From a bacterium (GTDB lineage: Bacteria; Actinomycetota; Acidimicrobiia; Spongiisociales; UBA5794), in the NCBI GenBank assembly GCA_024228555.1, contig JAAETI010000574.1:1-56468 (forward strand): DNA of 56,468 bases, given 5' to 3'. Position numbers and translations under genes: made by a program. Every line of letters starts with the position of its first letter. Positions within the stretch are counted from its first letter, which is position 1. A model generated the notes under the pieces. It did no database searches, was not told the origin of the DNA, and was given only the letters and a program-made list of their open reading frames with translations. Positions 17,751 through 23,691 of the stretch are shown here, piece after piece.

Positions 17751-18680
17751 CTACGACACTTCGGCCTTCCCGCTGACGCTGCCGCCACTCCGGCTGTAAG
17801 GGAATGAGTGATCCCAATCAGCAAGCAGGGTACGCAGGGCAGCCACAAACGCAAGCGGCTGGTCGAGAATCAGATGATGGTGCGCCTCGGGAATGGTCAC
17901 CACGGGTGACGTGCGATCCATGAGTTCGTACATGTAGGCGGCGGTGTCCTCGGGCACTGTTACCGAGTGCTGGCCACGGAACAGGGCAACCCGGCAGCGG
18001 ACACTCGCCAACTGATCACGCAACGGGATGAGGGTGTGCTTGAACAACATCGGATCAAACTTCCACGTCCACCCCTTTTCTGTCTCGTGAAGCGAATGGC
18101 GGGCAATGTGGTCAATGATGTAGTCATGCTCACAAGGTTGCGGAGGGATCAGCCGAAAATGCCGAACGGCAGACTCGAGATCCGTGTAGCGACCGGGATG
18201 GCGGAAAGCCCGGCCCCTGGCACCTTCTTCAGACTCCGGATCGGGTCTGCGCACCGGTGTGTCCACAATCACAGCCCCGCGCAACCGATCGCCATGATCC
18301 GATGCGGTTTGGATGGTCACCATCCCCCCAAGACTGTGCCCCACGAGCACCGGCGGACCAGGGAACTTGGCAGCGTCGACGACCGCCATAACCTCGCATG
18401 CCCAAGCTTCATGCGAGTAATCCGTACGCCTTCCGCTGTCACCGTGACCGGAGAGATCGAGAGCAACCACGTGCCAATTCTCAGCAAACATTGGGGCAAG
18501 AAAGGCCCACCACTGGGCATGAGCGGCCCCACCATGCACAAATACAAGACCCGGCTGTGACTTGTCTCCCCACTCCAGATAGTGAATCGGGACACCGTCG
18601 ACTTCAACAAAGCCCTCGTCGTATGGCGTAGCCATCGCTCGATAGAACCACTCGGGGATAGCAGATCCCGTGTCAGCCAT
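17751..18680 (-). CDS. Alpha/beta hydrolase
   Basis: 309 aa from ATG 18680. Motifs: oxyanion segment VFVHGGAAHAQWW, nucleophile elbow GHSLGG, the strand 'VVALDLSGHGDSGRR', and a late catalytic histidine in 'EAHHHLILDQP'. The substrate is unknown. The start lies inside the end of the upstream PLP-enzyme gene (8-nt overlap, ATGGCTGA), so the two are translationally coupled and probably act together. A longer start at 18740 exists but would overlap the upstream gene by about 68 nt with no ribosome binding site advantage. Confidence 0.85.
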   Translation of the reverse strand: MADTGSAIPEWFYRAMATPYDEGFVEVDGVPIHYLEWGDKSQPGLVFVHGGAAHAQWWAFLAPMFAENWHVVALDLSGHGDSGRRTDYSHEAWACEVMAVVDAAKFPGPPVLVGHSLGGMVTIQTASDHGDRLRGAVIVDTPVRRPDPESEEGARGRAFRHPGRYTDLESAVRHFRLIPPQPCEHDYIIDHIARHSLHETEKGWTWKFDPMLFKHTLIPLRDQLASVRCRVALFRGQHSVTVPEDTAAYMYELMDRTSPVVTIPEAHHHLILDQPLAFVAALRTLLADWDHSFPYSRSGGSVSGKAEVS

Positions 18681-20388
18681 TGGTGGACCCAGCGTTGCCG
18701 TGAACCTCGTCGGGAAGCGGGAACCACCGCAGGTGTTCAAAATCCTCGGTTACCTGGGGCGCACCCAGCGGTTCGGGGAGATCGGCCGAATCGAAATCGG
18801 CGAGAATCGCATGGGCCTGGTCTAGATACTCCACCAGATGCTCGTCTGAGTGCAACTGGGGACGATACCGGAAGTCCATGTCCCCGCTCGAGTAGTCGAT
18901 GCTCTTGAGGCTCAGCGGGGGTTCGGCGAGTGGTTCACGGTGACGCCACAGGGCAGTCTCCGGCTCAAATCGATAGTACGGAAGGAAACGCCAACCCTGG
19001 TCCGCCACAAAGGCAACGGCCCCCAAAATGAAGTCGATCACCTTCTCCGAGATGAAGTAGTTGAAGTTCACTCGCACCCAGCCCGGCTTGATCCCCTCAC
19101 ACCCGCGGGATATCTCATTCTCGAATTCGTGGGACCGTTCCAGGTCGATTCCCAACAATCTGTGTCCGTAGGGACCGGCACAAGAGCATCCGCCGCGTGA
19201 CTGAATCCCGAACAGATCGTTGAGCAAAGCCACAACGAAGTTGTGATGTAGATAACGACCGTCGTAGCGAATCACGAACGAGACAATGGACAAACGATCG
19301 GCGGCGTGGTTGCCAAGCACCTCGATGTTTGGATGAGCCGACCAAGCTTTGATCGCCTTGCTGGTCATGTCCTCTTCGCGACTCTTGATGACATCCGAGC
19401 CCACGGCTTCCTTGAGCTGGAAGACAAGGCCGGCCCGGATCGACTCAACAATGGCAGGCGTGCCCCCCTCCTCACGATGCTCGATATCCACTAGATAGCT
19501 GTGATCAACCGGATTGACGTAGGCGACTGTCCCGCCGCCCGGGACTGCGGGGACCCGGTTGGCGAAGAGCTCTTTGCGGGCCACCAATAAGCCGGGAGTC
19601 CCGGGGCCACCGATGAACTTGTGAGGTGAGAGATAGATGGCATCCTTGTAGGCAAGCTCGGCGTCGGCGCACGATGCTTGAGATGCCATCGAGATATCGA
19701 CATAGGGGGCAGCGGCCGCAAAATCCCAGAACGACAAAGCGCCGTGCTGGTGGAGCAGTATCGAGATGGCTTCGACGTCCGAGATGATGCCGGTGACATT
19801 TGATGCGGCCGAGAACGATCCAATCTTGAGATCTCGGTCGGCATAGTGCTCCAGTTCCTTCTCCAGCTGGTGCAAGTCGATATGCCCGTCGGCGTCCTCG
19901 GCGATCGTCACCACATCCGCAATCGACTCCCGCCACGGCAACTCATTGGAATGATGCTCGTACGGTCCAATGAATACGACGGGTCGCTCGGCAAGGGGTA
20001 TCTGCTGCGACAGCCGGTACTTGTCTTCGAGAGTGCACGGGATGCGAATCCCCATCACACCGATCAGCCGGTCGATCGCCCCGGTCATTCCCGAGCCACA
20101 GAAAAGGACAGCATGCTCATCAGTGGCACCGACACACTGGCGGACGATCTCACGAGCCTCCTCACGGAATCGTGTTGTCTGCAACCCTGTCCCCGATGAC
20201 TCTGTATGCGTATTGGCATACAGCGGCATCACCGCATTGCGGATGTAGTCCTCGATAAACGTGAGCGACCTTCCAGAAGCGGTGTAGTCGGCATATGTGA
20301 CTTTGCGCGGACCGAACGGGCCTGCAACAACCTCGTCACGCCCGATGACTGAGGAACGAATTGTCTCGATGAGTTGGTCCGGATTCAT
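18673..20388 (-). CDS. Aminotransferase class V-fold PLP-dependent enzyme (cysteine-desulfurase-like)
   Basis: 571 aa. Features: 'YADYTASGRSLTFIEDYIRN', 'NTHTESSGTGLQTTRFREE', 'FCGSGMTGAIDRL', the PLP lysine in 'YLSPHKFIGGPGTPGLL', and a cysteine loop 'QSRGGCSCAGPYGHRLLGI' like that of SufS/Csd enzymes. It is about 150 residues longer than a normal cysteine desulfurase because of C-terminal sequence ('PYYRFEPETALWRHREPLAE' onward). The true reaction is unknown and could be desulfuration or lyase chemistry. The start has no ribosome binding site, but TAGATT lies 6 nt upstream, so it is probably leaderless. Confidence 0.8.
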   Translation of the reverse strand: MNPDQLIETIRSSVIGRDEVVAGPFGPRKVTYADYTASGRSLTFIEDYIRNAVMPLYANTHTESSGTGLQTTRFREEAREIVRQCVGATDEHAVLFCGSGMTGAIDRLIGVMGIRIPCTLEDKYRLSQQIPLAERPVVFIGPYEHHSNELPWRESIADVVTIAEDADGHIDLHQLEKELEHYADRDLKIGSFSAASNVTGIISDVEAISILLHQHGALSFWDFAAAAPYVDISMASQASCADAELAYKDAIYLSPHKFIGGPGTPGLLVARKELFANRVPAVPGGGTVAYVNPVDHSYLVDIEHREEGGTPAIVESIRAGLVFQLKEAVGSDVIKSREEDMTSKAIKAWSAHPNIEVLGNHAADRLSIVSFVIRYDGRYLHHNFVVALLNDLFGIQSRGGCSCAGPYGHRLLGIDLERSHEFENEISRGCEGIKPGWVRVNFNYFISEKVIDFILGAVAFVADQGWRFLPYYRFEPETALWRHREPLAEPPLSLKSIDYSSGDMDFRYRPQLHSDEHLVEYLDQAHAILADFDSADLPEPLGAPQVTEDFEHLRWFPLPDEVHGNAGSTNG

Positions 20389-20438: not shown

Positions 20439-20612
20439 ATGGATTCTGAGCAGAACAAACCCTCGTTACAAGGCTTCGGGATCGCGACTGCGATCGGTGC
20501 GGGAATCGGGACAGCCTTCTTTGCTGGTTCGGAAAATCCCGTCTGGATTGGACTGGGTGCCGGACTTGGGTTGCTCGTATGGTCGATTTGGAATGCACGC
20601 CGGTCGGGCTAG
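20439..20612 (+). CDS. Small membrane protein, 57 aa
   Basis: The ATG at 20439 opens a 57-aa frame: a polar start (MDSEQNKPSLQGFG), one glycine-rich hydrophobic segment (IATAIGAGIGTAFFAG), a short turn SENP, a second segment (VWIGLGAGLGLLVWSIW), and a basic end NARRSG. This predicts a two-helix hairpin with a positive cytoplasmic tail. A TACAGT box 7 nt upstream indicates a leaderless mRNA. The TAG overlaps the convergent alkyltransferase stop: both genes end in the same CTAG. I know no family for it. Confidence 0.65.
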   Translation: MDSEQNKPSLQGFGIATAIGAGIGTAFFAGSENPVWIGLGAGLGLLVWSIWNARRSG

Positions 20613-21370
20613 CCGGGGCGACACACTTTGCACGGTCGATATCCGGCGTCTATCGCTCGTTGCGGCGTGCGGAACACCATGCGGTGCGAGGCCACGATAC
20701 GGCGGGCGTTGCGACACGTCGGGAAACAAAAGACATCTGTTGTGTCGCTGCCGACGTACTGCAACGAGCCAGGTTCAAAGAGCTCGCTGCTCATTCCCTC
20801 ATGCTCCAGCAGGGTCTTCTTCATGAGCGGCCCGAACGCATAGCTACCAACTGCGCCATCACTGCGCACGACGCGGTGACACGGAATGACAATCGGCACG
20901 GGATTGCGCCCCAATGCGGAACCAACCGCTCGCACCGCACCCGTGTTGCCCATTTCTCTAGCGACCCAGCCATAGGGGCGAACCTCACCAGGAGGAATCC
21001 CTGCGGTCACATTCAAGACCTCACGTTGAAATGCGGACAGCTGTCGGAGATCCACCGGCAGTTTGCCCAGTTTGCCCGTGTCAAAGGACTGCAAGAGAAG
21101 GTTGCCCAGACGGGATGGCAGCTCCTCGGCTCGATAGGCGGGTCTACCAACGGTGCCGGCGTGGACATCGAGGAACATTGATTCATCACTAGTCGGGACG
21201 ATCGATGTGACGCCAAGCGAAGTGAAGCCAACGTACAAGTCTCCGATAGGGCCGGCAACGGTCGTGTACTGATCAGCGAGGTCGGTTCTAATCATTACTA
21301 GCGGTTTGATGGAGTCCGGTGTCGGCTCGAAAGCAGTCAACGAATCTGGGATTTCGAAATCCTGGTTCAT
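20609..21370 (-). CDS. Ada-type alkyltransferase with permuted domains (MGMT then Ada zinc domain)
   Basis: 253 aa. Residues ~25-185 form an O6-alkylguanine-DNA alkyltransferase: 'LRQLSAFQREVLNVTAGIP', 'VRAVGSALGRNPVPIVIPCH' with the active cysteine in PCHRV near residue 161. Residues ~205-253 form an Ada metal-binding domain with C215-x3-C219-x27-C247-x2-C250, matching the spacing of the N-terminal domain of E. coli Ada, which accepts methyl groups from phosphotriesters. No AraC helix-turn-helix is present, and the order is the reverse of Ada. It overlaps the upstream ECF sigma gene by 4 nt (ATGA). Confidence 0.85.
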   Translation of the reverse strand: MNQDFEIPDSLTAFEPTPDSIKPLVMIRTDLADQYTTVAGPIGDLYVGFTSLGVTSIVPTSDESMFLDVHAGTVGRPAYRAEELPSRLGNLLLQSFDTGKLGKLPVDLRQLSAFQREVLNVTAGIPPGEVRPYGWVAREMGNTGAVRAVGSALGRNPVPIVIPCHRVVRSDGAVGSYAFGPLMKKTLLEHEGMSSELFEPGSLQYVGSDTTDVFCFPTCRNARRIVASHRMVFRTPQRAIDAGYRPCKVCRPG

Positions 21371-21924
21371 GTCGTTTCCTCCGTGATCATGATCGTGCGG
21401 AGCCGCTCGAGGCCGCGATGGACGTCGGACTTCACAGTGCCGGCGGGACGGCCGACGACCTCAGCGATCTCGTCATAGGTCAACCCAACAACATGACGGA
21501 GCACAATCGTGTCGCGCTGCCGGGCGGTCAACCGACCCAACCGCACCCGCCACTCATCGACTGTCACCGTCTCGATGGCGCTTTGCTCGGTGGCTTCAGG
21601 ACCCGGCGCATCGGTCCTGCCCAGCGCAACCTGATTGGGACGGCGGCCACGAGTCCTGGCGTGGTTGCGACACAGATTGAGTGTGATTGTGAACAACCAT
21701 GGACGCAACGCCAGATCCACAACGCGCTCCTCCGGGTAGCTCTGCAGTGCTCTGTATGCCTTGACGAATACCTCTTGTGTGACGTCTTCCGCATCCTGCC
21801 GGGCCGGCAACCAGCGGCGCGCCCCGTTGAAAACCAGACCCTGCATCTCGGTCACGAAGTCGGGAAAGGCGCGATCCAAGTCGCCGGCTAGTCGTCTATT
21901 GAGCACACCTTGTGTGACTGTCAT
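21367..21924 (-). CDS. ECF (group 4) RNA polymerase sigma factor
   Basis: 185 aa. Sigma2 carries 'DAEDVTQEVFVKAYRAL' and 'RPWLFTITLNLCRNHAR'. Sigma4 carries 'LTARQRDTIVLRHVVGLTYD' and the helix-turn-helix 'EIAEVVGRPAGTVKSDVHRG'. The start follows GGAGAGG. There is no anti-sigma gene beside it. Instead the next gene, overlapping by 4 nt, is the permuted Ada-type alkyltransferase, which suggests that alkylation damage is the signal or the target regulon. The ECF subgroup was not determined. Confidence 0.9.
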   Translation of the reverse strand: MTVTQGVLNRRLAGDLDRAFPDFVTEMQGLVFNGARRWLPARQDAEDVTQEVFVKAYRALQSYPEERVVDLALRPWLFTITLNLCRNHARTRGRRPNQVALGRTDAPGPEATEQSAIETVTVDEWRVRLGRLTARQRDTIVLRHVVGLTYDEIAEVVGRPAGTVKSDVHRGLERLRTIMITEETT

Positions 21925-21986
21925 AAACCTCTCCGCATGGCGTACACCCCTAACAACCCCGCCGAGATCACGACCGTTGCAAGGTT

Positions 21987-23657
21987 CTACCGAGCCAGTT
22001 CGCTGCGCAGCAGATCCAGACCGACCGGGCCCACCGCAAGCAGTCGAGCGTGGAATTCCTTCTGATCGAACTCGGACCCGAGCCGCGCCTCAGCATCGCT
22101 GCGGATGTCGAGTATCGCCTGTTCTCCAACCTTGTACGAGATTGCCTGACCTGGCCATCCCAGATACCGGGTGATCTCCGATGCAGCGTGGGGCCTGCCT
22201 TGTGCGGCGTACTCCACGAGCATCTCGACGGCGGTTTCGAACGTCCATTCCTCGCCGGGATGGAACGGTTGGCCGTTCGGTATTGGCAATTCCATGTGAG
22301 CACCGATATCAATGACAACTCGACACGCACGCAGCATTTGCCCCGACAACCAGCCGAGCACGTAGTCGGGCTTTTCAAAGAACCCGAGTTCGTTCATGAA
22401 CCTCTCTGCGTACAGCGCCCATCCCTCACCGGACCCTGACTTCCAAACCCAGAGCCGATGGAGTCGGGACAGTTGGTCTGCGAGCGATACCTGAACGCCT
22501 ACCTGGAGATGATGTCCGGGGAAGCCCTCGTGATAAGCAGTCGATACCTCATCGAAGAGCGCATACGGACCTTGTGGGGTCAACGACCACCACACACTGC
22601 CCGGCCGGGTGAAGTCTTCGGATGGCCCTACGTAGTAGGCACCCAGCGAACTCCCCTGCGGTGCGATATTCACTGTCACGGTGCGAATCTGATCGGGCAC
22701 ATCGAAGTGGGTACCAGCGAGGCGATCAAGCGCATCGTCCAGCCGGCCTTGAATGAACTCAGCGAGAGCCGCCGAGTCGGCGACCGTCCGCGACGGATCT
22801 GTTCTCAACAGCTGATCCACCTCGTGAAGACTCGCCCCCGGCCGGATCTGCGCCGCAACCATCTTCATCTGAGCCGCGAGTTCGCGCACCTGCTCCCATC
22901 CCCACGCATAAGTCGCGACCGGGTCGATATTGGTTCCGAGGAATTCGTATGCCGCCCGCACATAGCGTTCCGCCCCAACACCATCGTTAGCGGCGGCATC
23001 TGGGGCATACGTGTCCGCTAAGTAGTCGGCGAGCCCTGCAAAGGCAGCTCTGGCCTCTGCAACGGCTGCGCCTAGTTGGGCGGAAAAACCATCGTCAGGA
23101 TGGTTCCGCGCATACGCATCCACAAGATTGGCGAGCCGGGAACCGGCAGCCGCGCTCACCCGGCACTGCTCGACACCGGCTTCCACCTGCCGCTCGGCTA
23201 CGGCCATGTTCTTGCGTCTGCCCTCATCAAGGCTGGCCCGATAGCCGTCGATCGCAGCAGGCAGCCGCTCCACCCGAGCGAGAATGTTGGCCCAGTCCTC
23301 ATCAGACTCCTGGCCCATGTGATCCCAAATCTCACGCAGGCTCTGCAGCGACGAAGCCATGGAATTCAAGTCGCGGAGATGATCACCGTGCTGGAATCTC
23401 TGTGCTTCCTCATCGAGGGTCGTCTTGGCGAGTTCGACAGCAAGCCGATCCCAGTCGTCTTCAGCCGGAGGCAACGCATCGACCTCCGAGCGAAGCCGGC
23501 GCAGCGTTCCAAGCGCCTCCTCCGCACCTTCCGGACTTCGGTCGGTCCAGCGATCGTCATGCCCGGCGACGCCGAGTTCGGTAGCGACATCTGGATAGGT
23601 TCTGGCGAACTCGTCAACGATCTCGCTGCTCAGCCTATAAATCGGATGGTTTTGCAC
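21987..23657 (-). CDS. DUF885 family putative metallohydrolase
   Basis: 556 aa. The DUF885 signature, a zinc-site motif of the form HEGxPGHH, is seen in 'STAYHEGFPGHHLQVGVQVS' near residue 370. Later blocks include 'SGSGEGWALYAERFMNELGF', 'LRACRVVIDIGAHM' and 'RYLGWPGQAISYKVGE'. Related proteins are thought to be carboxypeptidase-like zinc enzymes, but substrates are unknown. There is no signal peptide. The start is GTG 23657 (begins MQNHPIYRL), 7 nt after GAGGAG. The longer frame to 23672 would place the start before that ribosome binding site. Confidence 0.82.
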   Translation of the reverse strand: MQNHPIYRLSSEIVDEFARTYPDVATELGVAGHDDRWTDRSPEGAEEALGTLRRLRSEVDALPPAEDDWDRLAVELAKTTLDEEAQRFQHGDHLRDLNSMASSLQSLREIWDHMGQESDEDWANILARVERLPAAIDGYRASLDEGRRKNMAVAERQVEAGVEQCRVSAAAGSRLANLVDAYARNHPDDGFSAQLGAAVAEARAAFAGLADYLADTYAPDAAANDGVGAERYVRAAYEFLGTNIDPVATYAWGWEQVRELAAQMKMVAAQIRPGASLHEVDQLLRTDPSRTVADSAALAEFIQGRLDDALDRLAGTHFDVPDQIRTVTVNIAPQGSSLGAYYVGPSEDFTRPGSVWWSLTPQGPYALFDEVSTAYHEGFPGHHLQVGVQVSLADQLSRLHRLWVWKSGSGEGWALYAERFMNELGFFEKPDYVLGWLSGQMLRACRVVIDIGAHMELPIPNGQPFHPGEEWTFETAVEMLVEYAAQGRPHAASEITRYLGWPGQAISYKVGEQAILDIRSDAEARLGSEFDQKEFHARLLAVGPVGLDLLRSELAR

Positions 23658-23691
23658 GCACACGCTCCTCAACGGTCAGAATGATCGGACC

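Follow-up and report, generated by a model that had tools for sequence, protein, structure and literature searches.

A conserved ECF sigma factor-alkyltransferase gene pair with its own promoter motif may form a sigma-based adaptive response to DNA alkylation

The window analysed here is a stretch of 56,468 nucleotides from a metagenome-assembled genome that its named relatives show to be acidimicrobial, and the two genes that concern us lie on its reverse strand. The first (21367–21924) encodes a protein of 185 residues with Sigma70_r2 at residues 24–95 (5e-15) and Sigma70_r4_2 at residues 128–175 (1e-13), both above the Pfam cut-off; with regions 2 and 4 only, in about 185 residues, it is an ECF sigma factor. 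The second (20609–21370) encodes an alkyltransferase of 253 residues, in which an N-terminal extension of 40–45 residues (about residues 1–45; 21236–21370) precedes an MGMT DNA-binding/acceptor domain (residues 113–192; 20795–21034; DNA_binding_1, 6e-30) and an Ada metal-binding Cys4 domain (residues 205–252; 20615–20758; Ada_Zn_binding, 3.5e-10). The genes share 4 nt in an ATGA stop/start overlap (21367–21370), from which we infer that their translation is coupled. Direct reading of the sequence places a Shine-Dalgarno-like GGAGAGG 5′ of the sigma ATG (21928–21934, same strand). Further upstream, a predicted ECF promoter of the operon spans 21955–21981, with a −35 element TGCAAC (21976–21981), a 15-nt spacer and a −10 element GGGGTT (21955–21960). 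On the forward strand, a hydrophobic 57-residue membrane ORF (20439–20612) converges with the alkyltransferase gene and uses the same terminal CTAG; its homologues occur at the same position in the same-genus loci L004, L005, L006 and L010, and not elsewhere.

Judged by sequence and modelled fold, the partner is an O6-alkylguanine-DNA alkyltransferase of the MGMT/Ogt type, possessing a PCHR acceptor motif with Cys164 (codon 20879–20881), Tyr133 and the Arg147 finger in a predicted MGMT fold. Its C-terminal domain (FCFPTC...PCKVC) has the four cysteine ligands CxxxC...CxxC and a predicted N-Ada fold, with phosphotriester acceptance as its predicted function, and this is the sole Ada_Zn_binding protein of the genome. 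In an AlphaFold2 model built with 39 relatives (mean pLDDT 93), the closest PDB structure to the MGMT part is E. coli C-Ada (1sfe) and that to the C-terminal part is methylated N-Ada (1u8b; rmsd 1.2 Å over 49 columns). No AraC-type DNA-binding domain was matched in the partner by Pfam at E<1, and the protein is thus not an Ada regulator of the E. coli type; nor did the known anti-sigma domains zf-HC2, RskA and class I ASD match it at E<1. Its hydropathy maximum over 19 residues is only 1.1, so no membrane helix is expected. Sequence reading and Pfam agree with the sequence-only reading on coordinates, strand, 4-nt overlap, domain order and absence of the AraC part. Its term "permuted Ada" is right in that MGMT precedes the Ada zinc domain; the arrangement is more exactly a domain shuffle in which the start of the zinc domain is shortened (profile positions 18–64 of 65). 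The N-terminal extension, a candidate sigma-binding element, has the consensus L..L.t.AP..L...VL..tGlaD, in which P18 and D33 hardly vary among the acidimicrobial and Chloroflexota proteins; residues 21–28 are modelled with high confidence as a helix.

Every distinct locus found to encode an N-extended MGMT, 67 of 67, has a homologous ECF gene immediately 5′ of it; these loci come from Acidimicrobiia, Rubrobacteria, other actinobacteria and Chloroflexota. The pairing is therefore far beyond chance, and the proposal that the two genes are conserved as a pair is borne out across phyla. Among the relatives, every one of 27 distinct high-scoring loci, two from Chloroflexota included, had the ECF homologue in this position. 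Twenty further stretches contained both genes in 16 cases, were cut by a contig end in 2 and held an MGMT without a sigma neighbour in 2. Moreover, the N-terminal part alone, used as a query against 396 genomes of the phylum, retrieved 30 loci, of which 24 had not been met before, and the ECF gene was present in every one. Named carriers are Rubrobacter radiotolerans, Nonomuraea gerenzanensis and three Streptomyces. The acceptor Cys-His-Arg is invariant in all sigma-linked proteins; most members have a complete MGMT catalytic set, and the DNA-binding residues are kept outside the Streptomyces type.

Across the 67 loci there is no third conserved regulator between the sigma and alkyltransferase genes. 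A separate anti-sigma gene was sought as a candidate regulator and the immediate neighbourhood contains none, in line with the sequence-only reading. The conserved neighbours, found in many Acidimicrobiia, are instead a class-V aminotransferase and a DUF885 gene. In the window these flank the operon on the same strand at 18673–20388 (SufS-like, far below cut-off) and 21987–23672, respectively, and over the 81 loci searched, some of which are duplicated, they have matches in 28 and 17. In a Rubrobacter relative (G382), a SnoaL-like gene (L298, 3511–3957, reverse strand) sits just 5′ of the sigma/alkyltransferase operon.

The Ada domain had been put forward as the anti-sigma element or signal carrier. 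As a general role this does not survive, and the domain is ruled out as an essential part, because at least 14 sigma-linked homologues (L132–L139, L142, L143, L177–L180) lack it and end after MGMT. Those from Acidimicrobiia (L132–L139) still have their ECF partner and an autoregulatory promoter. The parts present in every sigma-linked protein are the N-terminal extension and MGMT; on this comparison of sequences, these are the core and the Ada domain is accessory. In one same-genus genome (L010, G003:C1:95195–95770) the frame stops right after MGMT and two TAG stops interrupt the match, perhaps a sign of an Ada domain in decay.

The sequence-only reading had suggested looking for a motif of the sigma factor's own upstream of position 21924, and one is present at 21955–21981. 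This site scores 25.3 on a position weight matrix (PWM) trained without it and is the top site of the window. Exact TGCAAC-N15-GGKGTT stands 5′ of the sigma gene in 25 of 27 homologous operons, and across 61 genomes the pattern has 76 matches, about half of them at the operon, against 11 for a reversed control. In a distant clade that contains Rubrobacter the motif reads TGAAAC-N15-nGTGTT (19 matches in 19 genomes against 3 for the control, 14 of the matches at the operon). An operon promoter motif is found in Nonomuraea and Streptomyces also, and overall the conserved autoregulatory promoter can be written TG(C/A)AAC-N15-nGKGTT. Its AAC-N18-GTT core matches the general plan of ECF promoters. 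No conserved extra operator was noticed near the promoter, and in many operons the −10 element is very close to the start, leaving scant room for additional regulatory DNA. A TGCAAC-N15-GGGGTT also occurs about 80 nt 5′ of a different ECF sigma gene (L300, G046:C39:98607); its PWM score is low (9.5), and it may therefore be a chance site.

Among sites away from the operon, the recurring second target is an EamA/DMT transporter. PWM scores of sites found by the pattern are biased upward, so the fair test is one on EamA exporter orthologues chosen independently of the motif. Of 28 such orthologues scanned, 11 carry a site at the gene start at the threshold of PWM ≥14 and the other 17 score ≤3.3, against a background in which 0 of 201,102 positions reach PWM 12. 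The EamA gene of the window's own genome is among those with a site (G000:C933, 19369–19395). Other exact matches in that genome (C199 and C236) were considered as targets and have no convincing gene downstream.

Repair genes had also been suggested as a place to look for the motif, and it is present at some of them, each a single case. One relative (G037) has a site before an AlkA-like HhH-GPD glycosylase; AlkA-like genes were scanned and this was the only one so marked, and a general alkylation regulon that includes AlkA was rejected. In the Rubrobacter relative G382, a near-copy of the operon promoter precedes a pair of genes for MGMT and Oxygenase-NA, a DNA dealkylation family. Oxygenase-NA was likewise rejected as a general target, being absent from the window's genome and all 60 relatives and present in 1 of 21 others. 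Exporters are the commonest second target, and the placement of these sites suggests that the sigma factor activates genes for alkylation repair and drug export.

Variants of the operon in Streptomyces bear on what the alkyltransferase does. On plasmids of strains NBC_00464, NBC_01022 and NBC_00503 the gene order is sigma factor, Ada-MGMT regulator and second MGMT, and all three modules sit within clusters that contain a methyltransferase, metK, metF and SARP regulators. In NBC_00464 and NBC_00503 the regulator retains PCHR and the Ada cysteines but no longer has Tyr133, Tyr177 or the Arg147 finger; the base-flipping residues are present in the second MGMT. Loss of base-flipping residues with retention of the acceptor cysteines, together with the addition of a normal MGMT, is expected if the job of the regulator is sensing, and this division of labour is what one would look for if one protein were devoted to sensing and its neighbour to repair. 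The motif also lies 43 nt 5′ of an MFS exporter gene in NBC_00503, where it is divergently 5′ of an SDR gene as well, and precedes an SDR-MFS pair in NBC_00464.

A scan of two clusters (L294 and L295; NBC_00464 and NBC_00503) found a nitrosuccinate lyase that passes its NCBIfam cut-off and a diazotase-like adenylating enzyme that falls short of its own. With a diazotase-like enzyme, metK/metF and a kinase, and with the lyase in the two that were scanned, L294, L295 and L297 resemble unassigned diazo-type biosynthetic clusters, and such chemistry yields potentially alkylating products. The diazo literature that was searched for sigma or alkyltransferase terms mentions neither. A fourth strain, NBC_00212, encodes a single 448-residue protein in which sigma region 4 is joined to MGMT and Ada (L264:2467–3813), with a second MGMT beside it. 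In this fusion sigma region 2 was not detected and the promoter motif was not seen, and for these reasons it may be decayed. Judged by annotation, its cluster (VlmB-like, seryl-tRNA ligase, decarboxylase, flavin reductase, MmgE/PrpD) resembles that of valanimycin.

The pair, its conservation, the promoter and the second targets are read directly from the sequences. From them we consider it rather probable that the two genes of the operon make up a sigma-based adaptive response to agents that alkylate DNA, in which the alkyltransferase is a repair enzyme and also a sensor that controls the sigma factor. The wiring proposed by the sequence-only reading, a sensor joined to a sigma factor, is thus the best reading of pair, promoter and targets, although it would not in general run through the Ada domain. 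In outline, the ECF sigma factor would transcribe its own operon and a small repair and export regulon from TGCAAC-N15-GGKGTT promoters. Unmodified alkyltransferase would restrain it, most likely through the N-terminal extension and MGMT body. Once an alkyl group had moved irreversibly onto the MGMT cysteine and, in proteins that have one, onto the Ada Cys4 domain, the sigma factor would be released or activated. This would refill the pool of suicide enzyme and raise efflux and repair until alkylation ends. The parts of this scheme that we infer are contact of the alkyltransferase with the sigma factor, the sign of its control, and the role of alkylation as signal; that the alkyltransferase senses damage as well as repairing it is probable.

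Support for the sensor comes from the conserved pair, the autoregulatory promoter, the exporter and repair targets, the Streptomyces clusters with their residue losses, the fusion and the invariant Cys-His-Arg. There is also a precedent in a 1998 paper by Landini et al., which, going by its title, reportedly deals with an interaction between Ada and the sigma subunit. Counting against it are the lack of a match to known anti-sigma domains, the 17 of 28 EamA orthologues without a site, the single-case status of the glycosylase and Oxygenase-NA targets and the possible decay of the fusion. A bolder form, which we hold tentatively as something short of probable, is that a suicide DNA-repair enzyme is itself the anti-sigma factor, each alkyl group inactivating one inhibitor and freeing one sigma factor; that this class is widespread; and that Streptomyces plasmids recruited the switch as a self-resistance sensor for clusters with alkylating diazo- or azoxy-type products.

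Since most members have an intact MGMT domain, the regulator could be a mere co-regulated repair gene. The alkyltransferase would then be only the main target of a sigma factor controlled otherwise, be it through operon transcription, a different sensor or turnover of the protein. Repair alone would account for retention of the catalytic set, autoregulation plus a repair gene requires no direct contact, and the group ECF122 is described as having no anti-sigma factor. Nevertheless, we regard this as unlikely in view of the strict 1:1 linkage of overlapping genes across phyla, the N-terminal extension on sigma-linked copies, the Streptomyces regulators that stay attached to the sigma factor without base-flipping residues while a second MGMT is added, and the natural fusion with sigma region 4, none of which it explains.

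Direct contact could also be positive, the alkylated protein recruiting or activating the holoenzyme as E. coli Ada does. A signal other than DNA alkylation as such, with the Zn-Cys4 domain or MGMT cysteine reacting directly with electrophiles, oxidants or metals and export as the main output, would suit the prevalence of exporters and the Zn-thiol switches used by redox anti-sigma factors, but is very improbable given the DNA-binding residues conserved outside the Streptomyces type, the action on alkylated DNA of the repair genes at sigma sites, and the Ada-less members, which have no Zn domain. Positive contact is itself an improbable account, since the partner has no AraC-type DNA-binding part, no extra operator was noticed near the promoters, and many operons have little DNA to spare. 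The Ada-sigma interaction named in the 1998 title, which is listed in an Ada review, speaks for it, as does the fusion of MGMT with sigma sequence, which is more readily imagined if the partner acts positively. The Ada review describes C-Ada19 of E. coli as providing the RNA polymerase contact. On the sign of control, the evidence fits inhibition and co-activation alike.

The sigma-controlled adaptive response that we favour has a counterpart in the ECF classification. A review of non-canonical ECFs (PMC8999054) describes, for ECF122, 6-O-methylguanine DNA methyltransferases as conserved neighbours, no anti-sigma factor and a mechanism listed as unknown. The same context, an MGMT-family neighbour and no anti-sigma gene, holds in 67 of 67 loci here, the comparison being with the description of the group, whose representative is WP_057211282.1. 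In the literature searched, that one-line mention was the only one on the pair and on alkylation, and the part of the review that describes ECF122 is silent on the promoter, on targets in export and repair, on an MGMT-Ada architecture and on any link to biosynthetic clusters. The same literature has no description of the promoter and its targets, of variants that lack Ada or the base-flipping residues, of the fusion or of the cluster association, which so appear new. Taken together, the regulon, the promoter and the natural variants indicate that the function of ECF122 lies in DNA alkylation and efflux, which is directly testable. If true, the scheme would explain an adaptive response in bacteria without an AraC-type Ada regulator and would make irreversible alkyl transfer a second chemistry for freeing a sigma factor; moreover, modules within diazo-type clusters could flag genotoxin biosynthesis in genome mining.

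E. coli Ada likewise unites MGMT and the Ada Cys4 domain in one protein within a self-amplifying operon, and there too a suicide repair enzyme is the sensor, as we propose here. It differs in its reverse domain order and AraC part, whereas the present protein has no AraC part and its output would pass through a dedicated ECF sigma factor. AdaA-AdaB of Bacillus subtilis also distributes the Ada functions in a manner unlike that of E. coli, but AdaA retains the AraC part and no sigma factor is involved. Pairs of the SigR-RsrA type, an ECF sigma factor with a zinc anti-sigma factor, are familiar for a sigma-first coupled operon, autoregulation and a cysteine-metal partner, features that recur in this operon, where the coupling is predicted. 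In those pairs the switch is disulfide formation, whereas the partner described here has no recognisable anti-sigma domain and its proposed switch would be alkyl transfer.
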